40,144 nucleotides of DNA from Acidimicrobiia bacterium (GTDB lineage: Bacteria; Actinomycetota; Acidimicrobiia; Acidimicrobiales; AC-14), in NCBI GenBank assembly GCA_023265025.1, contig JAHFUP010000046.1:1-40144 (forward strand), read 5' to 3'. Within the stretch, counting starts at the first letter, position 1, and the number at the start of each line of letters is the position of its first letter. A program made the position numbers and the translations under genes. Positions 7,797 through 21,681 of the stretch are shown here, one piece after another. The notes below the pieces were generated by a model, which was not told where the DNA came from, did not search any database, and saw nothing but the letters and a program-made list of their open reading frames with translations.

Positions 7797-7903
7797 CGAT
7801 ATCCACGCTACCGGCAGGCCGGTGCGACGCCCGGTCGTTTCCCGGCCCGGGAGTGCTCCCTGAGGAACGTGATGATCGTCGTCGCGGTGTTCGCGGTCTG
7901 GCT

Positions 7904-8767
7904 TCACGGGTTGCGCATCAGCCCTCGGAACCTTGGCCCGAGGTAGTCCTTCGGCCCCGAGGCCACGAGTTGGCGCTTGACGATGGCCTCTGACTGGTGC
8001 ATGCGGCCCCAGGTGACCAGCAACATCGCTACTGGGTCGGCGTCGATGATGCAATCGACGGGCTGGCCCTCGGGGTCCTCGACGCTCAGTGCTCCGTCGT
8101 GGAAGACGAACATGTACCGGCGACAACCCTTGACTCGGATCTCGTAGGTCGCGCGCAGCCGGGAGGCCACGACCTGGTCGACGAAATCGCGGGGTCCGAG
8201 CGCGCGCAGGACCGGTATCAGGAACCCCTCGAGCACCAAGCAGGCCGTGTCCGGTCGCACCTCCCATCGCTGGCCGTCACCGCGGGCGATGTCCCAACCG
8301 TGCACGACCGTCTCGTTGAGCAAGTGGTAGGTCAGCGTGGACAAGGCGACCTCGGAGCCATCCACCAGCCAGGCCCTGGGGTCGGCGGCGGCCGTCTGGT
8401 CGATGGCGGCGAAGTAGCCGGCGGCCCGCTGCTCGATGCGATCAGCCAGCACGGAGCAGTTCCGCTCCGGATCGTTCCGTACGCCGAGGCTGGTCAGTTC
8501 GGAGAGATCCCAGAGTTCCCGGATGAGCGACGGGCCGGTGAGCTCGGGTAGCACCTCGCGGATCGCCGAGATGTCACGGCCGGCCAGGCCCGGCACCGCC
8601 ATCCAGGCCTGGGACAGGTGCATGGCCACCTCGGCGACCTTCCAGTCGCCGAGCGCCGGGGCCGTCGGGTTGCGGACCGAACGCAACAACCCGACGACCC
8701 GGCCGACCTCCTGGCGGAGGGCCTTCTGACCTCGACCCCACTCCAGCGGACGAGCCCGGCCGAGCAT
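7904..8767 (-). CDS. MDMPI N-terminal (DinB-like) / SCP2 sterol-binding domain protein
   Basis: A 287-residue protein built like the mycothiol-dependent maleylpyruvate isomerase-related family. An N-terminal four-helix DinB-like domain has metal-ligand candidates in VAEVAMHLSQAW and NETVVHGWDIARG. A C-terminal SCP2-like domain covers roughly residues 170-270 (CRRYMFVFHDGALSVED, DCIIDADPVAMLLVTWGR). Relatives are annotated as thiol- or metal-dependent enzymes of unknown substrate; the domain is common in mycothiol-producing actinobacteria. The start chosen is ATG at 8767, since the 59 codons further upstream are Arg/Pro-rich and not protein-like. No tight operon partner; its 3' end faces the cca gene across 107 bases. 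Confidence 0.8.
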   Translation of the reverse strand: MLGRARPLEWGRGQKALRQEVGRVVGLLRSVRNPTAPALGDWKVAEVAMHLSQAWMAVPGLAGRDISAIREVLPELTGPSLIRELWDLSELTSLGVRNDPERNCSVLADRIEQRAAGYFAAIDQTAAADPRAWLVDGSEVALSTLTYHLLNETVVHGWDIARGDGQRWEVRPDTACLVLEGFLIPVLRALGPRDFVDQVVASRLRATYEIRVKGCRRYMFVFHDGALSVEDPEGQPVDCIIDADPVAMLLVTWGRMHQSEAIVKRQLVASGPKDYLGPRFRGLMRNP

Positions 8768-8993
8768 CACCGGATGGCGCCCGGACGGCCAGCGCAGGCA
8801 TCGGGTGCGGCGGGCGGGAGCGAGGTCCGGTCGTCGAGGGTGGTCGGCATGGCGAGCAGCTTGACCGAGCGGCCAGGAGTCGCGCACGTCCTGCGTGACA
8901 ACCGCCGGCGACGAATCACCCGCATGCGAATACCAAGATCGCAATGCCGAGGGCGAGGGCCGCGCCGACGAGAGCCATCAGGCAAGGCGGCGT

Positions 8994-9815
8994 CTACCAG
9001 TCCTGGGCGGCGAGTAGTAGCGCGGCGAGCGGTTCGAGCGTGGCCATGAGCTCGTCGAGCTCGACCGGCTCGAGGCATTCGTAGGGCTTCGCCGCGAGGT
9101 CGTCGGTGAGCGCCTCGACCCGCTGTTTTACGGCGCGACCCTGTTCGCTGAGCCAACCGTCATCGCCGATCAGGCCGCGATCGCGCATCCCGTCGATCAC
9201 GGTGGAGAGTTGCGCTGCCGGGAGGTGGTGGATGCGCCCGAACTTCTCCGCGGGCATGCCCATGTCGAGGGCGAACAGGACGTGAGCCTCGAGGCCGCCG
9301 ACACCCTCGATCATCAGGGCTGCGATGTGTCCGTCGCCACGGTGCTCGCGCAGCAAGGAAGCGGCATGGAAGAGGCGGGCCACCACGTCATTCGGGATCG
9401 GGATGGCGCGCAGCGCGGCGTACATCGGCCGGCCCTCGAACGGTGCGCTGGTCCCGGCCCTGGTCAACAGTTCAGCGGCGCGGGCGAAGCCGGGAGAGTC
9501 GACGTGATCGCCGAGGATCCGCCGCAACGCCTTCACGCAGCCCGCCTGGCGAGCGGCGATCGCCGCTTCGGGTGTGGTGGTGCGCCACACCTTCGGAATG
9601 TGTCGGGCCACCTCACCAGGCGCAAAGTTGTAGAAGAGCGCGTCCACCACCTCCGCGGTGGCGAGGCCCAGGGGCGCCGCCCGTCCGGCGAAGTAGGTGT
9701 CCCAGTAGTTGGTGAACCCAAGGGCGAACATCGCTTCGTTGGGTTCGTCGGCTGAGTAGGGGATGGCACCGATCGGCTCGACCAGCTCGAACATCCGGCG
9801 TGCCATCGAGTTCAT
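8994..9815 (-). CDS. SCO6745-family (SalK-like) protein
   Basis: A 273-residue all-helical protein of the SCO6745 family, recognisable from ARRMFELVEPIGAIPYS near the N-terminus, GFTNYWDTYFAGRAAPLG, VVDALFYNFAP and LREHRGDGHIAALMIEGVGG. The family was named from a Streptomyces protein and is often annotated as helix-turn-helix or SalK-like; its biochemical role is unknown. ATG at 9815 is preceded by AGGAGA at about 9 bases, which decides the start; an in-frame upstream frame to 9857 and a second ATG at 9806 are less likely. It stands alone, with 282 bases to the divergent protease gene. Confidence 0.8.
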   Translation of the reverse strand: MNSMARRMFELVEPIGAIPYSADEPNEAMFALGFTNYWDTYFAGRAAPLGLATAEVVDALFYNFAPGEVARHIPKVWRTTTPEAAIAARQAGCVKALRRILGDHVDSPGFARAAELLTRAGTSAPFEGRPMYAALRAIPIPNDVVARLFHAASLLREHRGDGHIAALMIEGVGGLEAHVLFALDMGMPAEKFGRIHHLPAAQLSTVIDGMRDRGLIGDDGWLSEQGRAVKQRVEALTDDLAAKPYECLEPVELDELMATLEPLAALLLAAQDW

Positions 9816-10097
9816 TGTGCACTTCTCCTGTTGTTGCCCGGCGCCCTTCGCGGACACTCACGATGAGTTGGACGGCTGCGCGCCGCCAATCTCATCGCAC
9901 GACTGTCGACGACCGACGGTTCACGACCACGAGTACCGCCGGCGCGTGGTGGCCCGTCCAGTCCGGGCTTGACCAGCGGGTCGCCCGGGCTGGCCTTGAC
10001 GGCCGCCACAAATTCACTTACTACAACATCAAGTCAGATGAAGAAGCATCCTGTACCACCGACGCGCGGGATGGAGCCGATGCACGAAGACGCTCGA

Positions 10098-11105
10098 ATG
10101 CTGAACGGGGTGGTGGCGACGAGGCGCGCCTTGGGGGCGCTGGTGTTCGTGACAGCCTTGATCACGACCCTGATAGGCGTCGCTCCCGCGGGTGCGATCA
10201 CGAACGGGCAGACCGACGGCGACCGTCACCCATACGTGGTGGCGCTGGTCGACGACTGGCTGACGCCGGGTTACGTCCAGCGATTCTGTACCGGAAGTCT
10301 CGTCGCGCCGCGGCTGGTCGTCACCGCGGCGCATTGCCTACTCGGTCTCGTCGACTCCGACATCTGGGTCGGCTTCGAATCGGTCTACCGCCCCAACGTG
10401 ACGTCGGTCATTCACGGCACGGGGTATGCGGCCGTCGACCCAGCGATCTTTCGCGGCGAGTTCGGTACGAGCGCCAAGTACGGCAGCTCAGAGCTCGGCA
10501 ACGACATCGCCGTGGTCCACCTCGATGAAGTCGCGCCGGTCGATCGGTTCGCACAGCTCCCGCCGGCGGGGCTCTTGTCGACGCTGGACCTCAAGTCGCA
10601 GACGTTCACCGCTGTCGGCTTCGGCCGGACACGCCTGGACAGGACGAGGGGGCCGAACGGCATCGATCCGAACGTCGATCCGGACCTGCGAAACGTGTCG
10701 GTCGAGAGCTTCCGCAGTCTGCAATCGAGCGCGCTGACACTGTCGCAGAACCCGGCCACCGGCGACGGCGGCATATGCAACGGCGATTCGGGCGGCCCGC
10801 ACTTCCTCGGCGACTCGGACGTGATGGTCGCGATAACGACGTTCGCCGACATCGCCTGCCGCTCGCTCGGTCGGCACTATCGGGTCGACATACCGTTCGC
10901 GAGAGAGTTCCTCGCGTCTCTCAGGGTGTGCCGCTGCCATAGCACCGAACCTCGATCCATCGAATTCCGACTGACGCCGCCGTCTTGCCGGACTAGGGAT
11001 GGCGCTGAACCTCGGCTCCCTCTCAGGCAATCAGAGCCGCCACCGCTGCACCATGGCGAAGATGGCGATGAGCGGCAGTGCGCTGACGATCAAGGCCAGC
11101 GGTAG
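10098..11105 (+). CDS. Secreted trypsin-like serine protease (S1 family)
   Basis: From ATG 10098 the protein begins with a signal peptide (two Arg, hydrophobic core to about residue 30, Ala-x-Ala cleavage before ITNGQ). The mature part is a chymotrypsin-fold protease with the full triad: His79 in VVTAAHC, Asp136 in GNDIAVVHL and Ser231 in GICNGDSGGPHF. It should be an active extracellular peptidase, autoprocessed at the N-terminus like trypsin. In-frame ATGs at 10038, 10071 and 10080 are alternatives with no better ribosome-binding site. After the normal end of the fold (about residue 275, PFAREFLASL) there is a 60-residue Pro/Arg/Cys-containing tail of low quality that runs 75 bases into the convergent gene. 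The original stop may have been lost. Confidence 0.85.
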   Translation: MLNGVVATRRALGALVFVTALITTLIGVAPAGAITNGQTDGDRHPYVVALVDDWLTPGYVQRFCTGSLVAPRLVVTAAHCLLGLVDSDIWVGFESVYRPNVTSVIHGTGYAAVDPAIFRGEFGTSAKYGSSELGNDIAVVHLDEVAPVDRFAQLPPAGLLSTLDLKSQTFTAVGFGRTRLDRTRGPNGIDPNVDPDLRNVSVESFRSLQSSALTLSQNPATGDGGICNGDSGGPHFLGDSDVMVAITTFADIACRSLGRHYRVDIPFAREFLASLRVCRCHSTEPRSIEFRLTPPSCRTRDGAEPRLPLRQSEPPPLHHGEDGDERQCADDQGQR

Positions 11106-11483
11106 CTGACGGCGCTCGGCGGCGTGGGCCGCGGCGGGGTCGCCGGCCTCGAGCGCGGCCAGGCGCTGCTTGGCGATCGAGCCGAGCCCGCCGCCTCCCA
11201 GCGTCGCGCCGAGGACGATGGCGCCGACGCCGACCCAGATGAACGTCGACGACCACGACCAGTGGCCGTGGAGCACGAGGGCCACCCCGGTGACGGCGAT
11301 GACCACGGCCACGACGGCGTAGTAGACGTCGTGGAGCCAGACCTGCTGGCGGGCCCACGCCGTCACCACCTCCGGTGACTCCCGGGCGAGGCGGGGCGAG
11401 ATGACGTACCGGAGTATGTCGGCGCCGAGCCACCCCGTGACGGCGGCGATGTGGAGCGTCAGCAGGACGTTCCGGGTGTTCAT
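11031..11483 (-). CDS. Four-helix membrane protein, DUF2269-like
   Basis: A 150-residue integral membrane protein with about four hydrophobic segments (LLTLHIAAVTGWLGADI, a YYAVVAVVIAVTGVALVL stretch, FIWVGVGAIVLGATLG, LALIVSALPLIAIFAM). The early His and Trp-x-Gly pattern resembles DUF2269/CopD-type proteins, a family without an assigned reaction. ATG at 11483 overlaps the cupin gene stop by 4 bases (ATGA), making it the last gene of the TIGR03086-cupin-membrane protein operon, probably under the divergent TetR regulator. Its 3' end overlaps the convergent protease gene tail. The DUF assignment is tentative; the membrane topology is clear. Confidence 0.75.
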   Translation of the reverse strand: MNTRNVLLTLHIAAVTGWLGADILRYVISPRLARESPEVVTAWARQQVWLHDVYYAVVAVVIAVTGVALVLHGHWSWSSTFIWVGVGAIVLGATLGGGGLGSIAKQRLAALEAGDPAAAHAAERRQLPLALIVSALPLIAIFAMVQRWRL

Positions 11484-11944
11484 CGAGCCCTCCGCTCCAG
11501 CCACGCCTCGCTGGCGACGTCGTGGATGTCGTATTGCTCATGGTCGGACGGGTCGTGGGTATCCACGAGCCGGCGGAAGAACTCGAACCGCTCGACGCCC
11601 GGTGTGAGGACTACCAGGAGCTCGCCGTCGTGCCCCGCGGATGCCGCGAACGCGTGCGCGGCGCCGGCCGGCACGACGACGAGATCGCCGGCGGTGGCGG
11701 TGAGCGTCTGCTCGCCGGCCAGCAGGTCGACCGTGCCGTCGAGGACGTAGAACAGCTCGCTCGACCGCTCGTGGCGGTGGGGGCCGGCGCCGACGGCGCC
11801 GTCGACCAGGCGGACCCGGTGGGCGCTGAGGGCGCCGCTCGAGTCGAGGAGGAGCTGGAGCGTGCTCGAGCCGGCGACGAGCGTTTCGGCTTCCGCAGCC
11901 CGGACGACGGCGATGCGGTCGACATCCGAGGCGGGACCGGGCAT
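11480..11944 (-). CDS. Cupin-domain protein
   Basis: A 154-residue single-domain cupin. Motif 1 is read in GPHRHERSSELFYVLDG (metal-ligand His-x-His and Glu, about residues 54-70), and motif 2 in GDLVVVPAGAAHAFAAS (about residues 85-102). The ligand set suggests a metal-binding beta-barrel, either a small-molecule dioxygenase/isomerase or a binding protein; the substrate cannot be told. The gene begins one base after the stop of the TIGR03086 gene and overlaps the membrane-protein gene by 4 bases, so the three genes form an operon. A polar C-terminal extension (THDPSDHEQYDIHDVASEAW) follows the barrel. Confidence 0.88.
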   Translation of the reverse strand: MPGPASDVDRIAVVRAAEAETLVAGSSTLQLLLDSSGALSAHRVRLVDGAVGAGPHRHERSSELFYVLDGTVDLLAGEQTLTATAGDLVVVPAGAAHAFAASAGHDGELLVVLTPGVERFEFFRRLVDTHDPSDHEQYDIHDVASEAWLERRAR

Positions 11945-11945
11945 G

Positions 11946-12503
11946 TCAGGGCCGCCGGCCCAGCAGGGCCAGCATGCGATCGGCGACGGGCGCGCCGTCG
12001 GAGACCTCGACCTCGGGCCCGAGCATCCCGCCGGCCCGCATGCCGTCCAGCGGCACCGAGGCGTAGAGCTGGTGGACGAGCGCGGCCAGCGCCGGGTCGA
12101 CCGGCGCCGGTCGGCCGATCGCCATGGCCAGGTCCCAGGTGTGCACGACGACCTCGCCGAGGTTGATGATGGCCGACGCCGGCGACGGGAACGTCCCGTA
12201 GAAGTACGTCCGGTCGCCTTCGAGCCCGCTCTCCCGCCACGACGCCACGTTCTCGCGGGCGACCTCGGCCCACGTCGCGACCAGCGTGCCCCCGTCGCCC
12301 ACCAGGTCGCCGTGGTCGTTGCCCGCGGCCTGGCCCTGGTTGACCCGGGTCATCATCAGGGCCTCGCCGAGTGTGTGGTTGAGCAGGGCCCGCACGTCCC
12401 AGCCGGCGCACGGGGTGGGGGCGTCGAGCTGCTCGGCGGTGAGGCCGGCGACGACCTGCGCCCCCACTTCCCATGACCGCTCCAGTGCGTCGATGATGTC
12501 CAC
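11946..12503 (-). CDS. TIGR03086-family metal-binding protein (MDMPI/DinB-like)
   Basis: A 185-residue four-helix protein of the TIGR03086 family: start DALERSWEVGAQVVAGL, the conserved PTPCAGWDVRALLNHTLGEA with the first His ligand, and VVVHTWDLAMAIGR with the second. These relatives of mycothiol-dependent maleylpyruvate isomerase bind a metal ion; the reaction is not known for most members. It is the first gene of a three-gene operon with a cupin and a membrane protein, and it is divergent from a TetR regulator 53 bases away, which probably controls it. Confidence 0.88.
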   Translation of the reverse strand: MDIIDALERSWEVGAQVVAGLTAEQLDAPTPCAGWDVRALLNHTLGEALMMTRVNQGQAAGNDHGDLVGDGGTLVATWAEVARENVASWRESGLEGDRTYFYGTFPSPASAIINLGEVVVHTWDLAMAIGRPAPVDPALAALVHQLYASVPLDGMRAGGMLGPEVEVSDGAPVADRMLALLGRRP

Positions 12504-12524
12504 GGTGCCTCCTGTCAGTTAGAG

Positions 12525-12556
12525 TGGAACATGATTCTGGGCATAATAGTGTTCTA
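12525..12556. promoter_or_regulatory. Imperfect inverted repeat, probable TetR operator
   Basis: In the 53-base gap between the divergent TIGR03086 and TetR genes, TGGAACATGATTC (12525-12537) is matched by the inverse of TAATAGTGTTCTA (12544-12556) at 9 of 13 positions around a 6-base centre. This is the only AT-rich patch in the area and must hold both promoters. Size and position fit an autoregulatory TetR operator. Confidence 0.55.
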
Positions 12557-13222
12557 ATGTCAATACCGGCCGGTGACGGCTCGAAGCGGCCGTACGACGC
12601 CCGCCGCCGGCGCGAGCGCGCCGACGAGGAGCGCCGGGCCACCAGGCGCCGGGTGGTGGACGCGGCCAGCCGGGCGTTCGTCGCCAACGGCTACACGGCG
12701 ACGACCATGGCCGACATCGCCCGGGAGGCTGGGGTCGCGGTCCAGTCGGTCTACACGGCGGCCCAGAGCAAGGCCGACCTCCTGCACCTGGTCGTGGACC
12801 TCGCGGTGGCCGGCGACGACGAGGACGTGCTCGTGCACGACCGTCAGGCCTACGCCGAGATCGCCGCCGAGCCCGATGCCGAACGGCAGGTGCAGATGAT
12901 CGCCGGCCTGATCTGCTCGATCCAGGAGCGGTCGGCGCCCGTCCAGGCCGCCTACCGCGAGGCGGCGGCCGTCGACCCCAAGGTCGCCGCCAGCCTCGAA
13001 GCGGCACACCGGCGCCGGCACGAGTCCTTCACCGTCGCCATTCGCATGCTGCCGGCGCACCGCCTCCGGCGGTCACCCGAGGAGAGCACCGACACGATGT
13101 GGGCCATCGGCAGCTCCGAGGTGTTCCTGCTCCTCCGCACCGTGCGGGGATGGGACGCGAGCCACTACCGCGAGTGGCTCACCCGCACCCTCGTCGACCA
13201 GCTCCTCCTTCCCGGGGACTGA
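12557..13222 (+). CDS. TetR-family transcriptional regulator
   Basis: A 221-residue regulator. Residues ~25-75 hold the TetR helix-turn-helix (RRVVDAASRAFVANGYTATT, IAREAGVAVQSVYTAAQSKA); note the AQSK in place of the usual FxSK before the ligand domain. The C-terminal ~140 residues are the variable helical ligand/dimer domain. ATG at 12557 follows the probable operator directly; an upstream in-frame GTG at 12524 would run through the operator and is less likely. It is divergent from the TIGR03086-cupin-membrane operon, which it most likely represses together with itself. The inducer is unknown. Confidence 0.9.
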   Translation: MSIPAGDGSKRPYDARRRRERADEERRATRRRVVDAASRAFVANGYTATTMADIAREAGVAVQSVYTAAQSKADLLHLVVDLAVAGDDEDVLVHDRQAYAEIAAEPDAERQVQMIAGLICSIQERSAPVQAAYREAAAVDPKVAASLEAAHRRRHESFTVAIRMLPAHRLRRSPEESTDTMWAIGSSEVFLLLRTVRGWDASHYREWLTRTLVDQLLLPGD

Positions 13223-13300
13223 TGCAACGGCTTCGCCGTCAGTGACAGAGTCAGGTGTCCAAACGAGCCGGGTCGAAAGGAGATCGCGGTGGACCCCCCA

Positions 13301-13320
13301 GGACGACGGCTGGGTCGTCC
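13301..13320. terminator. Hairpin between convergent genes (probable bidirectional terminator)
   Basis: GGACGAC (13301-13307) and GTCGTCC (13314-13320) form a perfect 7-bp stem around a 6-base loop, lying between the 3' ends of the convergent tetR and DUF1801 genes. No T-run follows, which is common in very GC-rich genomes. A weaker 5-bp hairpin with a 3-base loop lies at 13227-13239. Confidence 0.4.
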
Positions 13321-13334
13321 GAGCGTATGGCTCG

Positions 13335-13781
13335 TTATGAGACGGCGGCCCTCACCAGTTCGACGACCTTCTTCTCGACTGCTGGGGTCCACGCGGTGAG
13401 GGCGTAGGAGGTCGGCCACATCGGACCGTCGTCGAGGTTCGCGGCCTCTTCGAAGCCGAGCGTCGCGTAGCGGGTCTTGAACTTGCCGGCGTCCTTGAAG
13501 AACACGATGACCTTGCCGTCGTCGTTCGCGTAGGCCGGCATTCCGTACCACGTCTTGGGCGACAGACCGGGCGCGGTGGACATCACCGTGGCGTGCATCC
13601 GCTCGGCGATGTCACGGTCGTCGGGCGCCATTGCCGCGATGCTGTCGAGCACCGCCTGGAGGGCGTCGGCCTTCCTGGCCCCCTTCTTCCCTTCGGAGCG
13701 CAGCTCGGCGGCGCGTTGCTTCATTGCCGCGCGCTCGTCGGCGCTGAACCCGTCGGAACTGGTGTCGGTCTTCGCAGGCAT
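13335..13781 (-). CDS. DUF1801/YdhG-like protein
   Basis: A 148-residue cytoplasmic protein. The first ~45 residues are charged and helical (MKQRAAELRSEGKKGARKA); the rest matches the YdhG/DUF1801 fold, with DRDIAERMHATV, LSPKTWYGMPAYAND and KVIVFFKDAGKFKTRYATLG. Relatives include the Bacillus frataxin-like iron chaperone YdhG (Fra), but most actinobacterial members are uncharacterised, so an iron role here is only a possibility. It stands alone between the tetR gene (convergent) and a small monooxygenase-fold gene. Confidence 0.85.
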   Translation of the reverse strand: MPAKTDTSSDGFSADERAAMKQRAAELRSEGKKGARKADALQAVLDSIAAMAPDDRDIAERMHATVMSTAPGLSPKTWYGMPAYANDDGKVIVFFKDAGKFKTRYATLGFEEAANLDDGPMWPTSYALTAWTPAVEKKVVELVRAAVS

Positions 13782-13886
13782 GGCGAGCCTCCGCTATCGG
13801 GCGAGTCGTGTCTTGTCGACTGACGTTACGCCCGGGGCCGCGGCACTACTTCTCGAATCCTGATCAGTTCCGAACCCAGCGTGAGT

Positions 13887-14177
13887 TCAGGATCCGGGCG
13901 TGAAGTAATTGTGGACGTCGAAGAACTGCATCTGCGGCGGTCCGGGCAGCCCGACTTCCGCGGAGAAAGGCCCGATCTGCTCCTGGGCGAACGTGTCGAA
14001 CTGCTCCCTCGTCTCCCACACGTCGACGACGCGCAGGCCCGAGTCGGTGAGGGTGGCGAAGTGGGAGATGGCCCCGGTCGGACCGGGCCCCCCGGGCGTC
14101 AGCCCCATCTTCCCGCACACCGCGTCGTACTGGTCGAGCGTGGCGCCCTCGAAGTCCATCTGCACCGCAACTGCCAT
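13887..14177 (-). CDS. Small dimeric alpha/beta-barrel (ABM/EthD-like) protein
   Basis: A 96-residue protein that looks like one ferredoxin-like half-barrel of the antibiotic biosynthesis monooxygenase/EthD group: strand MAVAVQMDFEG, helix TLDQYDAVCGKMG, a strand ISHFATLTDSGLRVVDVWET and helix REQFDTFAQEQIGPFSAEVG. Such proteins work as dimers; substrates vary widely. ATG at 14177 is preceded by GGGAGG at 5 bases, which decides the start even though the frame is open further upstream through the TIR gene region. It lies just downstream of the TIR gene on the same strand with 92 bases between, so it may be transcribed from the same promoter, but it is not tightly coupled. Confidence 0.75.
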   Translation of the reverse strand: MAVAVQMDFEGATLDQYDAVCGKMGLTPGGPGPTGAISHFATLTDSGLRVVDVWETREQFDTFAQEQIGPFSAEVGLPGPPQMQFFDVHNYFTPGS

Positions 14178-14269
14178 GTCGGCCTCCCGTGTCCACGTGC
14201 CGATCGGCAAACTGCCAACCGCCCGCACTCTCGCGCAGTCCGGCCGGCCGTGCTCGATGACCCCGTGGG

Positions 14270-15064
14270 CTACGGCAGGATCCGGGTCAACGCTGACATG
14301 AGCCGCTTGCCTGCGGCGTCCACATCGCGACCGAAGGACACCACGGGGACGTCCTCGCCGAGCTGCGGCGCATGATGTCGTCCGACGCCTGGTGGCCACA
14401 CCGCCACGATGGGCTTGTGGTGCTTTCGGGCGACGTCGAGCTCCAGCACGCACCAGCGCGACAGCCGCCACTGCGGCGTCGCCACGACGAGGAGCGCGGT
14501 GCCGGCGACGACGCAGCGTTCCAGCTCCGCGGGGAGGATCGCCGTATCGAGGCGTTCCGTGTAGAGGTAGTCGAAGGCTGGGATCCGCCGATCGCGGAGA
14601 AAGGAAGCGAGGTCGCCCAGGAACGCGACATCGGCCCGGCTGTAGGAGAGGAAGACAGCCGGCGACCGCCTCTTCGGACGCTTCCCGAGGATGGTGAAGA
14701 GGTGCTCGTAGCCGCCTGACTCCTGCCGGCTCGGCGGATAGGACTGACCGGGGATGAGAAAGAGGCCGGGGAACCCGTGCAGGAGGGGTGGCAGGCGGGA
14801 ACTGTCCGCTCGGGCGATGGCGACGGGGTGGCCGGGGCCCCGGCGCGCCACCAGCGTCTCGAACACCTTCTCGGGCCACCGCGTCTTCGATGTATGCACG
14901 ACGATCACGCCGGCGGAATCGTCGCGGTTGCCGGCGAGGAACTGCTCGACCGTCACCAGGACGGCCGGGAGCCCGGCGTCGGACAGGTCGCCGGCGATGT
15001 GTGTCGCAACCGTGCCGCTCCGGCCGGACCCGCCGAGGACCAGGACCGGGCGCGTCGGCTTCAC
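14270..15064 (-). CDS. TIR-domain protein, likely NAD-cleaving effector
   Basis: A 264-residue protein, last gene of the lipase-STAND-TIR operon. Residues ~135-240 are a TIR domain: AVFLSYSRADVAFLGDL, a BB-loop region near IPAFDYLYTE, ELERCVVAGTALLVVATPQW and SRWCVLELDVARKHHKPI. Glu208 in the WCxxE motif matches the catalytic Glu of NAD-hydrolysing TIRs, so NAD+ cleavage or cyclisation is expected when the domain is activated. Residues ~1-105 form a second Rossmann/TIR-like domain (PVLVLGGSGRSGTVATHIA, AGVIVVHTSKTRWPEKVFE) lacking such a motif; it may be the link to the NTPase. The GTG start overlaps the STAND gene stop by 4 bases (GTGA), so the two are made together. Start and length are therefore well supported. 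Confidence 0.85.
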   Translation of the reverse strand: MKPTRPVLVLGGSGRSGTVATHIAGDLSDAGLPAVLVTVEQFLAGNRDDSAGVIVVHTSKTRWPEKVFETLVARRGPGHPVAIARADSSRLPPLLHGFPGLFLIPGQSYPPSRQESGGYEHLFTILGKRPKRRSPAVFLSYSRADVAFLGDLASFLRDRRIPAFDYLYTERLDTAILPAELERCVVAGTALLVVATPQWRLSRWCVLELDVARKHHKPIVAVWPPGVGRHHAPQLGEDVPVVSFGRDVDAAGKRLMSALTRILP

Positions 15065-18000
15065 GACAGGAACGCAGCCTGGGAGCCGAACGAGCTCGGT
15101 GGCATGTCGTACTGGTGGAACAGGTCGAGGACGAGCTCTTCTATGTCGTCGACGTCGACGTCGAAGGCGACGGTCAGCAGCAGCCGACCGAGGATGGTGT
15201 CCATGGCCGTGACGTTGGTGACGGCCAGCGGCACGAGGCGCTGGATCGTCGACCGGCGCGCCTCGGGGCTGAGCTCGGCGACGGCCAGCGCCTCGGCCGC
15301 GAAGCGGGCGGCGAGGAGCGGGGCGAGCTCGGGGTCGGGCACGGCCACCTCCAGGCCGTCGGGCAGGAGGTCGTCGGGGCCCCACGGCGTGCCCGCATTG
15401 ATCCGTAGCAGCTCCTGCACCGAGCACTCGTAGACGTCGCGGGCGAGGGTCGCGAACGTTCTGGCATGGCGGATCCGGTTGGGGAGGGGGACCATCCCTG
15501 GATGCTGCGCCCGCCGCTCGTAGGGCTCGCCCACCACGTGCACGCCGGCGAACTGGGGCGCGGCCGGGTCGGCCAGGAAGCGGGCGACGGTGTCGTCGAG
15601 TGGCATCGCCGGCCACCAGCGCCGGGTCAGGGCGTTGATGCGGCTGGTCGTGCGGGCACAGAAGCGTGGGTCCTGGACGTTGTGCGCCGCCGTCACCGCC
15701 GCCCGCAACGCGGCCTGGACCGCGTCGTCGCCGGCGCCGCACACGAGGGCGGACTCGGCGAGGGTCAGGCACCCCGGCGCCTGGTACCCGGCGTAGCCGA
15801 ACGGGAGGCCGAGGCCCTGCTCCACCAAGGCGGCGGCGCCGGGACGGTCGTCGAGGAGCTTGGCCACCGACTCGGCGAGGCAGCCGAGCCGGCGCTTGTG
15901 GCCGCTCCAGCTGTCGCCCTGGCCCCGCTCGTGGCTGAGGCGTCCGGCCTCGTCTCGCACCTCGGTGATCCGTTCCTCGAAGACGGCCGGCGCCTCGACG
16001 TGTCCGTTCAGGGAGAGCACGGCCAGGCCGGTGAGCACGAGGCAGTCGTCGACGATGACGCTGCCGCCGCCGAGGGCGGCCGTCGTCAGTTGCTCGACCA
16101 GCTCCTGCACCAGGGCGGTGTCGGGATGATGGACGACGCTGAGAAGGAGTGCCCAGAGGGAGCGGTTGCGGTACTGCACGTAGGGGTTGGCCGCGTGCAG
16201 CACGATGTAGTCGCGGAGCAGCTCCTTGCCGCCGAGGGGCGCGGCGGCCGCGTAGGAGACCAGCATCGGCCCCTCGACCTCGGCGCGGTAGACCGGCGCC
16301 TCGTCAGAGGTCGGCGCCGGCGCCGCGCCGCCGGTCCATGTCAGCGACGTCTCGCGGCCCCGCTCGAGCTCCTCCAGCACCTGCTCGCCGGCGACGAGCG
16401 GTTCGGCCAGCGCGCTGGGGTCGTCCGGGATGCGACCACCGATCTGGGCCACGATCGACCGTGCCCGCCACTCGTCGGGCGGCGCCTGCAGCGCCGTCGC
16501 CGGCGGCGGTGCGCCGTCGACGTCGACCGCCACGCGACCGGCGAGCAGCTCGAGGCCGGGGGCCAGCCCGCCGGAGGTGACGTGCAGGAGCCGGCGGGCC
16601 TCCTCGGCCGCCGCCGGCGCCGCCAGCCAGGCACAGACCAGCGAGGTGGCCTGGCGCCACGGCTCGTCGACCGCGAAAGCGGCCAGGCGCCGGCGGGCCC
16701 CGTCGAGGTCGCCCTGGCGGGCCAGGTCGAAGGTACGCGCCGGGCGCAGGCCCTCGCGGCGGAAGCGGGCCGCAAGGGTGGCGGTGCGGACGACGCGCAG
16801 GTACCCCAGTTCGCCGGTGTCGAGCGCGCACGCGGCCAGCGCCCGGTCGAGGTCGTCCATCAGGGCCCGGGGGTGGCCGATGCGGCGCTCGTGGAGGTCG
16901 ACGAAGGTGTCGTTCACCGCCTCGGCCAACCGCCCGCTCCACGCCGACCGCTCGGCCGGCTCGGCGTGGGCCCGGACCCGTTCGGCGAGATGGCCGATGC
17001 CATGGCGGAGCGCGTACTCGGGCGTCTCGGTGTCCCAGCGGGGGGCGAACGTCGCACACCACGTGGCCAGCTTCTCCGCGAACCGGTCGAGGTCGGCGGG
17101 CAGGAACAGCTCCTGGGCGACGATCCGCTGCAGCTCCCGGTGCATGAGGCGAACCCGGTCGCCGCCTCGGAGGAACCGCCGCATCGGCGCGACCGCCCTG
17201 TCCACCCGCAGCTTGGTGACGCCCAGGGCGGCGGCGATCTCGGCGAGGGCGATGCCGCCGCGGACGACGGCGAGCAGTCCGAGGACCTCCTCGGCCGCCT
17301 CCGAGTCGACCCGCTGCTGGAGCTGGGCGAAGTCGGCCCGGAAGTAATCACGGACGCCGGCCACGCCCTGGGCCTCGAGCTCGGCGAGGCGGGGCTCGCC
17401 GCCGGCGGCGACGTCGGCGCTGACCAGCGAGGAGAACAGCGGCTCACCGCGTGTGACCGCCAGGACCCGTCCGGCCAACCGGGCCGCGTCGTGGGGGTCG
17501 GCGCCGTTGTCTGCCAGCAGCTCGGTGAGGGCGATCTCGTCGAGGTGGTCGAGCGCCAGGCGCTCGGCGGTCCCGAGCGGGTGCTGGTGGTCGAGCACGG
17601 GCAGGGCCCAGGGCCGGGACGAGGCGATGACGTGCACATATGGACGGTCGGCCGGCGGGAGGACGTCGAGGACGGTCAGCCCATCGGTCGCCATCTCGTC
17701 GAGGCCGTCGACGAGGAGCAGAAGCGGCCGGTAGGCGTCGGCCGCCCGCCCGGCCCGCGCCCACAGCTGCAGGAGCTGGCTGCGCTGGGCTTCAAGGTCG
17801 CCGACGACGCCGCCCGTCGAGCCGACCAAAACGAGCAGCTGGGCGTTGACCGCGGCCAGGAACGCGGCCGCGGTGTTGCGCTTCTGCTCCTCCCGGACGA
17901 AGAAGAACGCGACGTCGGGGACGATCCCGGACTCCCAGGTGCCGGCGTCCCAAGTGCCGGAGTCGATGCGGCGGACGAGCTCGGCGAAGAGCGCGGACTT

Positions 18001-18831
18001 GCCGAACATGGCGTCGCCCTCGACGAGGAGGCACCCGGGCGGCTCCTGGTTGGCGAACCGGGTGAGCCGGTCCAGCACCTGCTCCCGGCCCACCAGCGGG
18101 CGGCCGGCGTAGTAGGCCAGCAACTGGTCGACCTCGGCGCGGTAGTCGGCGCGGGCGCCGAGCGTCTCGGGGGACCGGACGCGCCACCGGTCCTGGAGCG
18201 CGGCCACGTCGAGGGCGAAGCGGAACGTCCGGGCGCCGAACTGGGCGGCCCCGGCCCGGCACGCAGCGTCGAAGGTGAGCAGGCCGTCCACCCGGTCGCG
18301 CCCCTCCGGGACGCCGGACGCCAGGGCGTTGGCCCGGGCGAAGCCGGTGCACTCGATGGCGAGGTAGTCGCCGTCGGTGATCCGCTCGGTGAGAGCGCCG
18401 ACCTCCGCGATGCGCCCCTTGTCGCGGTCGGACCAGTCGAGCTCGGCGCCCCGGCCGGCGTCGCGCTGCTCCCGCCGGCCGAACCGGGTGGACACCGCGA
18501 CGATGGCGTGGTCGTCGAAGACCACGATCAGGGGCAGCAGCTCGTAGCCCAGGCACACGCCTGCCACCAGGAGGGCGAGGTCGAGGCACGTCCCCTCACC
18601 CGGCGCCCGCAGGATCTCCTCGGGCGCGCGGATCTCCTGGAGCTCGGCCTGCGGTGCGTACTTCTCGGGCGCGTACCGGACGCCGGCGGTGGACAGGGTG
18701 TCGTAGATCGCCCGCACCAGGTCGCGCCGGCTGGTGCCCCGGTCGAGGGGGGTGATGAGCTGGACCGCGTCGGGCCGGGCGTAGCCGGCGAGGGCGACCT
18801 CCTCGGCCTTGGACCAGGGCGTCCAGGTCAC
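15061..18831 (-). CDS. Transglutaminase-like/STAND NTPase protein (1256 residues)
   Basis: A very large cytoplasmic protein. Residues ~30-165 are transglutaminase-like: Cys82 in GEGTCLDLALLVAGV, His108 in VVFDDHAIVAV and an acidic residue in YLAIECTGF (Glu160) are the likely triad. Residues ~245-560 are a NACHT/STAND-type P-loop NTPase: PLVGRE linker, Walker A EGDAMFGKSA (271-280), Walker B LLLLVDGLDE (370-379), VIASSRPW sensor and a winged-helix-like segment (LAEIAAALGVTKLRV). About 500 residues of helical repeat-like sequence follow. Near the C-terminus, SVQELLRINAG ... LLPDGLEVAVPDPE resembles a LysM domain. STAND proteins are NTP-driven switches that oligomerise on sensing a signal. Here the switch sits between a lipase and a TIR effector with GTGA overlaps on both sides. 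Opposite-strand open frames across it are GC shadows. Confidence 0.85.
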   Translation of the reverse strand: MTWTPWSKAEEVALAGYARPDAVQLITPLDRGTSRRDLVRAIYDTLSTAGVRYAPEKYAPQAELQEIRAPEEILRAPGEGTCLDLALLVAGVCLGYELLPLIVVFDDHAIVAVSTRFGRREQRDAGRGAELDWSDRDKGRIAEVGALTERITDGDYLAIECTGFARANALASGVPEGRDRVDGLLTFDAACRAGAAQFGARTFRFALDVAALQDRWRVRSPETLGARADYRAEVDQLLAYYAGRPLVGREQVLDRLTRFANQEPPGCLLVEGDAMFGKSALFAELVRRIDSGTWDAGTWESGIVPDVAFFFVREEQKRNTAAAFLAAVNAQLLVLVGSTGGVVGDLEAQRSQLLQLWARAGRAADAYRPLLLLVDGLDEMATDGLTVLDVLPPADRPYVHVIASSRPWALPVLDHQHPLGTAERLALDHLDEIALTELLADNGADPHDAARLAGRVLAVTRGEPLFSSLVSADVAAGGEPRLAELEAQGVAGVRDYFRADFAQLQQRVDSEAAEEVLGLLAVVRGGIALAEIAAALGVTKLRVDRAVAPMRRFLRGGDRVRLMHRELQRIVAQELFLPADLDRFAEKLATWCATFAPRWDTETPEYALRHGIGHLAERVRAHAEPAERSAWSGRLAEAVNDTFVDLHERRIGHPRALMDDLDRALAACALDTGELGYLRVVRTATLAARFRREGLRPARTFDLARQGDLDGARRRLAAFAVDEPWRQATSLVCAWLAAPAAAEEARRLLHVTSGGLAPGLELLAGRVAVDVDGAPPPATALQAPPDEWRARSIVAQIGGRIPDDPSALAEPLVAGEQVLEELERGRETSLTWTGGAAPAPTSDEAPVYRAEVEGPMLVSYAAAAPLGGKELLRDYIVLHAANPYVQYRNRSLWALLLSVVHHPDTALVQELVEQLTTAALGGGSVIVDDCLVLTGLAVLSLNGHVEAPAVFEERITEVRDEAGRLSHERGQGDSWSGHKRRLGCLAESVAKLLDDRPGAAALVEQGLGLPFGYAGYQAPGCLTLAESALVCGAGDDAVQAALRAAVTAAHNVQDPRFCARTTSRINALTRRWWPAMPLDDTVARFLADPAAPQFAGVHVVGEPYERRAQHPGMVPLPNRIRHARTFATLARDVYECSVQELLRINAGTPWGPDDLLPDGLEVAVPDPELAPLLAARFAAEALAVAELSPEARRSTIQRLVPLAVTNVTAMDTILGRLLLTVAFDVDVDDIEELVLDLFHQYDMPPSSFGSQAAFLS

Positions 18832-20273
18832 CCCGCCACCTCGAAGACGTCGTGGACCGGATCGGGCATGACGTCGGCCTGCACGGCGCGGACCTCGACC
18901 TGGTAGAGGCCCGGCGCCAGCACGGCGTCGGCCGACCACCGCCCGCCGGCCTCGCCCAGATCGATCCGCGCCGGCGGGCCCGACGAGCCCACCCGCGTCA
19001 CGACCGCTCGCACCCCGCCCGGTTCCGCGTCGACGTTCACCATCCGGGCACCGATCGTCACCGGCTCGTCCGGCAGGTAGAGGTCGTCGAGGTCGAGGCT
19101 GATGGCCGGCGCCTGCTCGGCCTCCCCGCTCAGCTCGCCCCGGATGTGGGCGACGCCCGGCGCCTGGATCACCTGGAGGCGGGTCCGGCAGTGCGGGTCG
19201 AGGACACGGGGGAGGTGGATGCAGCTGTGGCGCTCGGGCACGAAGGTGTCGTAGAAGCCGCGGTCGAACTCGATCGGGGTCGCCCCCACCATCGGGACGG
19301 TGCCGTCGCCGCCGCGCCATTCGGCGGGGACGGCGGGGGGCAGGTCGCTGGAGGTGGTTAGCCGGGCCCCCACGAGGCGGGCCGACTGCAACGTGTCCTC
19401 CTGGCGTGTCCCGACGATGGGAAGGACGGCGAAGTTGTCGCGGTAGGACAGGCTCGTGCGGTTCTCCGCCACCGCGTCCTCGATGCGCTGGTGGAAGGCA
19501 CGCGCGGCCACGGCCCGCGCCCGGTCGACGCCGGGCACGCCGGCCGTCTCGCACACCCGCTGCCAGGCGCCGCCGGCTTCGAGCATGGGGTAGATGGGCA
19601 GCAGCTCGTAGGCCGAGCTGCATGACCGCAGCAGCTCGGTCAGGTCGACGAACGCCTTCTTGTAACCGTTGGCCAGGAAGTCGAGGGCGTTGACCGAGCC
19701 CCGGTGGGGGGTGCCGAATGTCACGAGCGCCCGGCAACGCTCCCAGCCGCCCAGGACGTCGACGTACTGCCTGGCGACGAGGCCGCCCATGCTGTGGGCC
19801 AGCAGGATCACCTTGGCGTCGGCGGCCCCGCTGTGCTCCTGCCACCGGGGGAGGCGGACGTCGACCAGCTTGGCCAGGGCCCGGGCCGACGCGGCGTTGT
19901 GCCGGCGCCAGTCGTACGGGAACTCGTAGACGTTTGCCGGCCGGTCGGGCGGGTCGTCGAACGCGCCGACCGTGACCTCGAACCGGTCCTCCACCCAGGC
20001 CCGCATGGCGGAGTACCCGTTCACCTTCTTCAGGCCGGGCACCAGGATCAGATCGGGGATCACCCGGGTGGCGGTCACACCGTCGCCGAGGTCGTCGGCA
20101 TCGGGGTCGTCGCCGTCGAGGGCAAGGGCCTGCACCGACGCGCCGAGTGACCGGAGGGCGCCCCAAGCGGCCTGGCCCGAGAACGCCCAGACGTCGCGTT
20201 CGTCCTTGCGCAGGACGCTGCCCGTGATGCCCGGCAGCATGATGACGACGTCTCTCATGCGGACCTTGGGCAC
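18828..20273 (-). CDS. Alpha/beta-hydrolase, LCAT/PGAP1-like lipase
   Basis: A 481-residue protein, first gene of the lipase-STAND-TIR operon. It starts [12 protein letters not shown], with an oxyanion-hole loop typical of lecithin:cholesterol acyltransferase/PGAP1-like lipases. The nucleophile is Ser161 in [22 protein letters not shown] follows, and [13 protein letters not shown] plus [10 protein letters not shown] supply likely Asp and His. A C-terminal ~100-residue beta-rich domain ([20 protein letters not shown] onward) looks Ig-like. There is no signal peptide, so it acts in the cytosol or at the inner face of the membrane; phospholipid or acyl-ester hydrolysis is expected. GTG at 20273 follows GGAGGGGAC; ATG at 20258 is the alternative. 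Its stop overlaps the STAND gene start by GTGA. It is divergent from the ACP-MbtH gene 90 bases away. Confidence 0.83.
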
Positions 20274-20363
20274 GTCCCCTCCGACGTCGGGCTCGCAGCG
20301 CTGGGGCCAACGGTAGCGGCCGGCCATAGGCTCCGGTCGGTCGGCGACGGGAGGTCGGACGAA

Positions 20364-20906
20364 ATGGGCGTAGGTGACAAGGTCAGGGACATCATCGTCG
20401 ACGCGTTGGGCGTGGACGCGGCCGACGTGACCCTGAGCGCCGACCTGGTGGACGACCTCGGGGCCGACTCCCTGCGCCTGGTCGAGCTGCGCATGGGGCT
20501 GGAGGAGGAGTTCGGCATCGAGATCCTCGACGAGGACGCCGAGGGCATCATGACGGTCCGGCAGGTCGTGGAGTTCGTCATCGCCACCGCCGGCAAGGTC
20601 ACACCTGCGCCACCCGTCGACGACGCCGGCGAGGACGCCCCCACCGACACAGCGGAAGCGCCGGTCGCGCCGGCCGCCGCGGATGCGCCGGCCGCGGCGG
20701 GTGCGCCGGCCGAGGACGACGATGACGACGTCGTCTACGCCGTCGTCATCAACCACGAGGAGCAGTACTCGATCTGGCCGGCGGACCGCGAGCCCCCGAT
20801 GGGTTGGGCCCGGGTCGGCAAGGAGGGCACCAAGGCCGAGTGCCTGGCCCACATCAACGTCGTCTGGACCGACATGCGCCCCCTGAGCCTGCGCCACCCG
20901 ATGTAG
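20364..20906 (+). CDS. Acyl carrier protein fused to an MbtH domain
   Basis: A 180-residue two-domain protein. Residues 1-78 are an acyl/peptidyl carrier protein with the phosphopantetheine site Ser36 in [13 protein letters not shown] and a typical four-helix pattern. An acidic, Ala/Pro-rich linker (about 79-123) follows. Residues ~124-180 match the MbtH signature almost completely: [21 protein letters not shown] and WTDMRPLSL. MbtH proteins bind and activate adenylation domains of non-ribosomal peptide synthetases, and carrier domains hold the activated acyl or aminoacyl group. Having both in one small protein, with no synthetase in the window, is unusual. ATG at 20364 has GGGAGG about 8 bases upstream. 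It is divergent from the lipase-STAND-TIR operon, so co-regulation is possible. The fusion is read straight from the sequence; the role is unknown. Confidence 0.92.
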
Positions 20907-20930
20907 GTCCGGGGCCGGCCTTCCGGGACC
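20906..20930. terminator. Possible hairpin terminator after the ACP-MbtH gene
   Basis: GGTCCGG (906-912) can pair with CCGGGACC (20923-20930) with one bulged base around a short loop, directly after the TAG of the ACP-MbtH gene and before the GNAT gene at 20956. No T-run follows; in GC-rich DNA this is weak evidence. Confidence 0.3.
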
Positions 20931-20955: not shown

Positions 20956-21681
20956 ATGACCACCGTCGCCACCGAGGTCCTGCAGTGGGGATGGGAACGG
21001 GCGCGGACCGGTCCGTGGCGGGGCGACGGGCAGATCGCCTACCTGGCGCCGCTGGCGCCGGCGGGGGCGCCGTCGGTCGACTTCCTGCGGCGGTGCATCG
21101 AGACCCTGTCGGCCCGCGGCTTCACCCAGGTGGTCACCAGCGCGCTGGCGCCGGCTGAGCAGTCCGGCTTCCTGGCCGTCGGGTTCGAGGAGTACGAGCG
21201 GCTCCACCTCCTCAGCCACAACCTCCGCGATGTCGAGCGGCCGGACAAGGAGGCGGCGCACCTGCTCCGCCGCGGCCGTACCGCCGACTGGCCGGCGGTG
21301 CTGGCGGTCGACGCGTCCGCCTTCGCTCCGTTCTGGCGGCTCGACGCCGGCGGGCTGAGCGAGGCCATCGACGCCACGCCGGTCACGCGGTTCCGGGTGG
21401 CCGCGGGCAGGAGGGGGTCCGGCATCTTCGCCTACGCGGTCACCGGGCTCAGCGTCAGCCAGGGCTACCTCCAGCGGCTCGCCGTCCACCCCGACCATCG
21501 CCGGCAGGGTCTCGGCCGGGCGCTGGGGCTCGACGGGCTCCGCTGGCTCCGCCGGCGGGGGGTGTCGGAGGCCGTGGTCAACACCCAGCTCGGCAACGAG
21601 CCGGCGCTGGCCCTCTACCTGTCGCTGGGGTTCCGCGAGGAGCCGATCCAGCTGTCCGTCCTCCACCGGCGGCTCGGGTGA
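20956..21681 (+). CDS. GNAT-family N-acetyltransferase
   Basis: A 241-residue protein. The C-terminal ~100 residues hold a GNAT domain with the acetyl-CoA pyrophosphate loop in LQRLAVHPDHRRQGLGRALG, then VVNTQLGNEPALALYLSLGF. The N-terminal ~100 residues (YLAPLAPAGAPSVDFLRRCI, GFTQVVTSALAPAEQSGFLAVGF) look like a degenerate second GNAT-like half. The acceptor is unknown. Its stop overlaps the DUF6049 gene start by 4 bases (GTGA). The pairing of a GNAT with DUF6049 near the origin cluster suggests a cell-envelope or housekeeping role, but that is inferred from position only. Confidence 0.85.
   Translation: MTTVATEVLQWGWERARTGPWRGDGQIAYLAPLAPAGAPSVDFLRRCIETLSARGFTQVVTSALAPAEQSGFLAVGFEEYERLHLLSHNLRDVERPDKEAAHLLRRGRTADWPAVLAVDASAFAPFWRLDAGGLSEAIDATPVTRFRVAAGRRGSGIFAYAVTGLSVSQGYLQRLAVHPDHRRQGLGRALGLDGLRWLRRRGVSEAVVNTQLGNEPALALYLSLGFREEPIQLSVLHRRLG

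Follow-up and report, generated by a model that had tools for sequence, protein, structure and literature searches.

MbtH-like proteins, which serve as helpers of non-ribosomal peptide synthetases (NRPSs), normally either stand alone or are joined to adenylation (A) domain proteins, a generalization found in one part of PMC6668435 that agrees with the account of the family given in the original prediction for this locus. The joined forms named in that part of the source include SlgN1 and NikP1 (MbtH-A) as well as ObiF/ObiF1 (C-A-PCP-TE-MbtH), and an ObiF1 module lacking its own MbtH was restored by MbtH supplied in trans. The free-standing forms include PA2412 (the PvdL partner), FscK, TxtH and MXAN_3118; the last of these, from Myxococcus, is an ‘orphan’ that is encoded outside any NRPS cluster and is reported to interact with seven NRPSs (an excerpt of PMC7593251, citing Esquilin-Lebron 2018). 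The motif published for the family reads VxxNxExQxSLWP-x5-PxGW-x12-L-x6-WTDxRPxSL (PMC7593251). Among acyl carrier proteins (ACPs), the closest described systems are AcpP of type II fatty acid synthesis and the ACPs of daptomycin-type lipopeptide initiation, in which a small carrier is used in trans with an NRPS (PMC9113097, in part).

The gene described here lies in a 40,144-nucleotide stretch of DNA (the whole of the stretch analysed, termed ‘the window’ below) and joins a carrier of the AcpP type to an MbtH domain. It has the complete MbtH signature in common with the free-standing proteins and, like MXAN_3118, is encoded outside an NRPS cluster, but places an acyl carrier protein, followed by about 42 linker residues, ahead of the MbtH domain. 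With SlgN1, NikP1 and ObiF/ObiF1 it shares the placement of MbtH within a larger chain; in contrast to them, that chain contains no adenylation domain (Pfam, whole chain), which sets it apart from the MbtH-A fusions of the SlgN1 type and means that any partner must be reached in trans. The WTDxRP tail, absent from ObiF1, is kept. The carrier scores above the TIGR00517 cut-off, as does AcpP of type II fatty acid synthesis, but is attached to MbtH and displays Arg38, Arg43 and Gly45 on its helix II. Unlike the daptomycin-type ACPs, it is not adjoined by a fatty acyl-AMP ligase (no AMP-binding domain is found on the contig), lies outside an NRPS cluster and carries an attached MbtH.

Architecture of the fusion gene

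The features of the gene are as follows.

20364..20906, plus strand: ACP-MbtH fusion gene, 180 amino acids plus stop (translation, Pfam, NCBIfam)
20349..20354, plus strand: likely ribosome-binding site GGGAGG, 9 nt before the ATG at 20364 (by eye)
20376..20579, plus strand: acyl carrier domain, AcpP type, PF00550, residues 5-72 (Pfam, NCBIfam, structure alignment)
20469..20471, plus strand: codon of Ser36 in DSL, the expected phosphopantetheine site (translation, alignment)
20475..20498, plus strand: helix II segment, residues 38-45 (carrier alignment)
20592..20717, plus strand: acidic Ala/Pro linker, residues 77-118, predicted to be unstructured (translation, codon composition, AlphaFold2)
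20718..20903, plus strand: MbtH domain, residues 119-180, with a signature that includes WTDMRP (Pfam, motif, alignment to PA2412)

The central claim of the original prediction, that an ACP and an MbtH domain share one 180-residue frame, is borne out by the translation, which runs as a single frame to its terminal stop with zero internal stops, and by two Pfam matches, PF00550 (PP-binding) at 50.7 bits against a cut-off of 20.8 and PF03621 (MbtH) at 77.2 bits against a cut-off of 27 (residues 117-165). Because both models lie far above their cut-offs within one frame, chance is no explanation for their co-occurrence; the fusion is real, as far as the assembly goes, and is a rare arrangement made of two known parts. 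The GC content at the three codon positions is coding-like in both halves (0.75/0.31/0.97 for the ACP and 0.68/0.40/0.97 for the MbtH domain), the corresponding values for the linker being 0.90/0.71/0.83. The acidic linker, the intact DSL site at Ser36 and the nearly complete MbtH signature had likewise been read correctly from the letters.

An AlphaFold2 model built with 12 aligned sequences (mean pLDDT 67.1, pTM 0.40) predicts carrier helices at residues 3-15, 36-50, 56-61 and 65-77 and, for the MbtH half, strands at 125-130, 135-139 and 148-155 followed by a helix at 157-170, with low confidence (pLDDT under 50) in residues 78-119 and the C-terminal tail (168-180). The pTM is low, as would be expected of two bodies joined loosely, and is uninformative on their contact. 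Folding without an alignment gave a poor carrier half and a mean pLDDT of 54.8.

The carrier half

The carrier half belongs with AcpP by most measures: it scores 78.9 bits against TIGR00517 (cut-off 70.45) and 91.4 bits against NF002148 (cut-off 71), aligns to solved ACPs such as 1x3o (E 2e-17), and presents the DSL serine. The exception lies in helix II, which is the partner-recognition helix of these carriers and in which Asp38 is important. The fusion carries Arg38, Arg43 and Gly45, where Asp, Val and Ala occupy these positions in all 11 of the other aligned carriers, and it alone has arginine at both 38 and 43 among 22 distinct short-frame DSL-type stretches from the collected loci. The VELR of the fusion carrier resembles, we presume, the carriers of type I polyketide synthases. 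These substitutions are hints, drawn from alignment, that the partner of the carrier may lie outside the ordinary enzymes of fatty acid synthesis.

In the same alignment, six carriers that do not belong to the order (L069, L156, L158, L152, L150 and L154; five of them from other parts of the phylum, one from Methylomirabilota) share 58-64% identity with the carrier of the fusion, against 45-57% for five carriers of the order itself. A separate ACP gene of the same genome is located on contig C3, beside genes that we take to be plsX, rnc, mutM and smc; it is likely the genome’s housekeeping ACP. Two genes of the phosphopantetheinyl transferase (PPTase) family, both above cut-off, are also present in the genome.

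The MbtH half

Over 61 residues (query 119-179, E 2e-22) the MbtH half can be aligned with PA2412 of Pseudomonas (2gpf/2pst) without a single gap. The published motif is found at residues 127-176 with a sole change, I for L in SLWP; PA2412 too reads SIWP in the alignment, and the signature in the form VxxNxExQxS[LI]WP-x5-PxGW-x12-L-x6-WTDxRPxSL is complete. No MbtH other than that of the fusion was found in the genome (1 match in 5,449,612 bases, 185 contigs). An NRPS adenylation domain is present in the same genome, on contig C150; location inside an NRPS cluster, which is usual for MbtH genes and not obligatory, is not observed.

Distribution of the fusion and of MbtH

The joining of these known parts is the novel element of the locus, and was found nowhere else in the collections searched. 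In a genome scan, a carrier and MbtH in one frame were present in 0 of the best 80 of at least 559 relatives, the two loci with both domains in one frame (L001 and L082, obtained apart from these 80) belonging to the genome itself; the best match of the scan (L002), aligned over residues 38-180, is a stand-alone MbtH. Both halves were matched in this genome only, among 41 relatives and 396 genomes of the phylum. None of 433 matched plasmid records covers 80% of the protein (0/83 cover 80% of the gene as DNA), and the same is true of all 24 matched phage records. No description of an ACP-MbtH protein appears among the titles and abstract openings listed in the literature searches. A common and already characterized architecture, which the original prediction had named as grounds for its dismissal, was not encountered in the genomes, plasmids, phages and literature searched. 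Genomes outside those sampled may carry the fusion.

MbtH of any kind is rare in this lineage. Samples of genomes (‘draws’) were searched by scoring, for each genome, the best 8 or fewer first-look candidates in the phylum draw and the best 16 or fewer in the order and class draws. The order draw gave matches in 5 of its 397 genomes and the class draw in 5 of its 395, the fusion’s own genome being counted each time; one of the latter (G974) lies below the curated cut-off, and a rescan of its locus gave neither an MbtH nor a carrier match. The MbtH frames of G005, G038, G149, G340, G831, G837 and G917 gave no carrier match. In G005 (85% complete, with no condensation-domain match) there is a candidate 56-residue MbtH-like protein without the WTDxRP tail (L088:1483-1653), adjoined by frames that we take to resemble groES and hisF/hisA.

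Ten stop-to-stop frames around MbtH in other genomes were also inspected, and eight contain MbtH only. In two from Acidobacteriaceae MAGs (L038:5959-6591 and L042:729-1343), MbtH is extended at its C terminus by about 130 residues, which give a weak match to CBF_beta (25.2 and 26.8 bits, cut-off 25); these frames represent a possible second unusual MbtH fusion, judged from profile matches.

Among 79 MbtH loci scanned with a profile that detects AcpP-like carriers only, two, both cyanobacterial, have such a carrier, at distances of about 0.6 and 1.8 kb from mbtH. In these loci (L067:6394-6993 and L078:7501-8196) the AcpP-like carrier ends a frame of 200 to 232 amino acids near mbtH, and the N-terminal stretches of the two frames are partly common to both (YPITGxN...INQTQYFE).

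A variable insert beside a conserved flank

Comparison with congeners places the gene at one end of a large insertion.

7799..20916 (or 20927), no strand: stretch of about 13.1 kb that is absent at the same place in two congeners (alignment to congeners)
20956..21681, plus strand: GNAT acetyltransferase gene, a conserved flank (Pfam, locus comparison)

In both congeners (G001 and G002) pcnA and the GNAT gene stand back to back, the aligned blocks being 25 and 14 bases apart. Here the insert ends with the fusion gene, and 49 bases separate it from the GNAT gene. In the GNAT loci of other genera, pcnA lies 1.1-1.3 kb away in L126, L127 and L130, with another frame between; it was not found in the flanks of the other 14 GNAT loci, nor in a 7-kb stretch of G005. 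The place is therefore variable, and the comparison makes it likelier that the insert was gained in this genome than that it was lost in parallel. No direct repeats were found within either of the short stretches at the insert boundaries, each searched against itself only, and no tRNA was found in the window.

These flanks bear on the possibility that acpP and mbtH genes were brought together by an artefact of assembly or binning. The fusion is known from a single draft genome in 185 contigs, in which it has no second copy. However, the contig continues on both sides of the insert into genus backbone that is 80-85% identical to the congeners at the nucleotide level, and the junction between the domains is not an abrupt join but a linker of about 42 residues, in frame and with a composition ordinary for a linker. 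An artefact is, on this evidence, highly improbable.

The insert encodes two MDMPI-type proteins, an HTH_67 protein, a trypsin-like protease, a cupin, a TetR regulator, a weak DUF1801 match, a TIR protein, a STAND-type ATPase and an LCAT-type hydrolase; domain scans of the neighbours of the fusion gene gave no biosynthetic link. On the minus strand, positions 14273-20309 encode a TIR-domain protein, a STAND/NACHT ATPase and an LCAT-like hydrolase in a row. The lipase-like frame of the last starts at or near 20309, divergent from and close to the start of the fusion at 20364, a proximity that raises the question of whether the fusion forms part of this gene set. The lipase-STAND pair, however, recurs on contig C31 of congener G001 (59% and 45% identical), where 18 kb of sequence gave no match to ACP-MbtH, and none is found in the stretches around three further lipase homologues (G060, G128 and G001 C65; two other matches, G144 and G001 C81, lie outside this survey). 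Recurring as it does without an ACP-MbtH match in the stretches covered, the pair does not point to a joint system, and membership of the fusion in the set, an extremely remote prospect, was rejected. The recurrence of the pair on another contig of a congener suggests that the hydrolase and STAND genes may constitute a movable, conflict-type module.

The NRPS elsewhere in the genome and its dependence on MbtH

The original prediction noted that no NRPS was present. This holds for the contig of the window (C174), where no condensation, AMP-binding or second carrier domain is found beyond the fusion’s own carrier, but not for the genome, in which a four-protein NRPS is encoded on contig C150 together with an aminotransferase, a glycosyltransferase and a hydrolase; on no other contig of the genome were condensation domains found. 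N1 displays a partial AMP-binding match, a partial condensation match (profile 5-358 of 456) and no carrier match (Pfam); N2 is A-MT-PCP-C, N3 is A-PCP-C and N4 is A-PCP. N2 and N3 (in L145:911-13572) begin with the adenylation domain, an order described for TxtA/TxtB as well. The presence of this NRPS, together with the two PPTase-family genes, makes an MbtH that acts in trans possible.

The simplest reading of these data, in our analysis, is that the fusion supplies a trans-acting MbtH, with a tethered carrier, to the NRPS on C150. We infer a young gene fusion, borne on the insert, whose flexible acidic linker connects an AcpP-type carrier to an intact MbtH domain. The MbtH half would bind an adenylation domain of the NRPS encoded elsewhere and help to fold it or to activate its amino acid, one of the two PPTases would load the carrier half with 4′-phosphopantetheine to give its holo form, and the carrier could then hold an acyl group, if it has such a cargo, near the bound module. 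We place the probability of a young fusion with a trans-acting MbtH and a tethered carrier at about 0.4. In its favor are the integrity of both domains, each above its curated cut-off, the absence of any other MbtH match in the genome, the NRPS and PPTase genes just described, the precedents of MXAN_3118 and of ObiF1 restored in trans, and the occurrence of MbtH in 3 of the 63 order-draw genomes with condensation domains (this one included) against 2 of the 334 without, a comparison that joins two profile searches on the assumption, suggested by their handles, that both covered the same genomes.

The main evidence against the trans-acting reading comes from the two congeners. Both retain an orthologous NRPS (N1-N4 are 59-76% identical over the best segment, N1 being taken from L145:1991 because a start at L145:911 is too early; the aminotransferase and glycosyltransferase are 79-88% identical), yet the order-draw profile search gave no MbtH match in either. 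The idea, also part of the original prediction, that the fusion recruits an adenylation enzyme encoded elsewhere is thus possible in the light of the NRPS on C150 and at the same time weakened. More broadly, 60 of the 63 genomes of the order draw that have condensation domains are without an MbtH match, which indicates that this group mostly retains its NRPSs in the absence of MbtH. The position of the fusion outside the NRPS cluster, among genes with no biosynthetic link, also counts against a trans-acting role.

Residues of the adenylation domains do not discriminate. In ObiF1 the alanine reported to contact MbtH is Ala841 (a passage of PMC6668435), and the equation of that residue with the alanine of GDLA is our own. 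N2 has GDLA and N3 has GDLV; linear gramicidin synthetase shares GDLA, and the residue was set aside as a test of MbtH dependence. A structure search with N3, meant for the same purpose, added nothing.

The pattern in the congeners, and the single occurrence of the fusion, are explained equally well by a neutral or decaying fusion, in which a single half is at work (most probably the carrier or, as an ordinary chaperone, MbtH) while the other is carried along on an insert of recent acquisition. The position of the gene at the edge of a stretch that both congeners lack, and the retention by those congeners of the NRPS with no MbtH found, are as such a history would leave them, and no ortholog was found with which selection might be measured. 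Against it stands the condition of the gene: both halves retain their signature residues and coding-type codons, with no stop or frameshift, and decay would be expected to erode those signatures. We regard a neutral fusion as a rather unlikely account, while giving it real weight.

A more elaborate alternative would make MbtH, instead of a chaperone, a docking tag or ‘address label’: bound to the adenylation domain of a protein encoded elsewhere, it would hold the acyl-loaded carrier there for transfer of the acyl group to a condensation domain close by, and the fusion would operate as a lipid- or acyl-starter device in trans. Such a role would suit N1, which has a condensation domain and no carrier (Pfam), although the condensation match is itself partial; it would also be in keeping with the three helix II positions at which the carrier departs from all others aligned, and with the AcpP-like carriers near mbtH in two of 79 loci, where they end a longer frame. 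However, the NRPS possesses its own A-PCP protein (N4) that could serve as the donor, the NRPS persists in congeners that lack the fusion, and the contig of the fusion provides no AMP-binding domain. Docking is accordingly an improbable function, and the trans-acting MbtH with a tethered carrier is carried forward here as the preferred reading.

Implications

If the fusion is functional, it would represent a natural, one-chain link between a carrier of the fatty-acid type and an NRPS helper. MbtH would then be usable as a means of bringing other parts to an NRPS module, and the protein would offer a design for the engineered delivery of acyl groups in trans. Were the docking interpretation to prove true, an NRPS module would receive its acyl starter from a carrier outside itself, by a new route of recruitment. 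If the fusion is instead without function, it would provide a clean case of two small accessory parts that have become fused on a variable insert, in a lineage with few MbtH genes.
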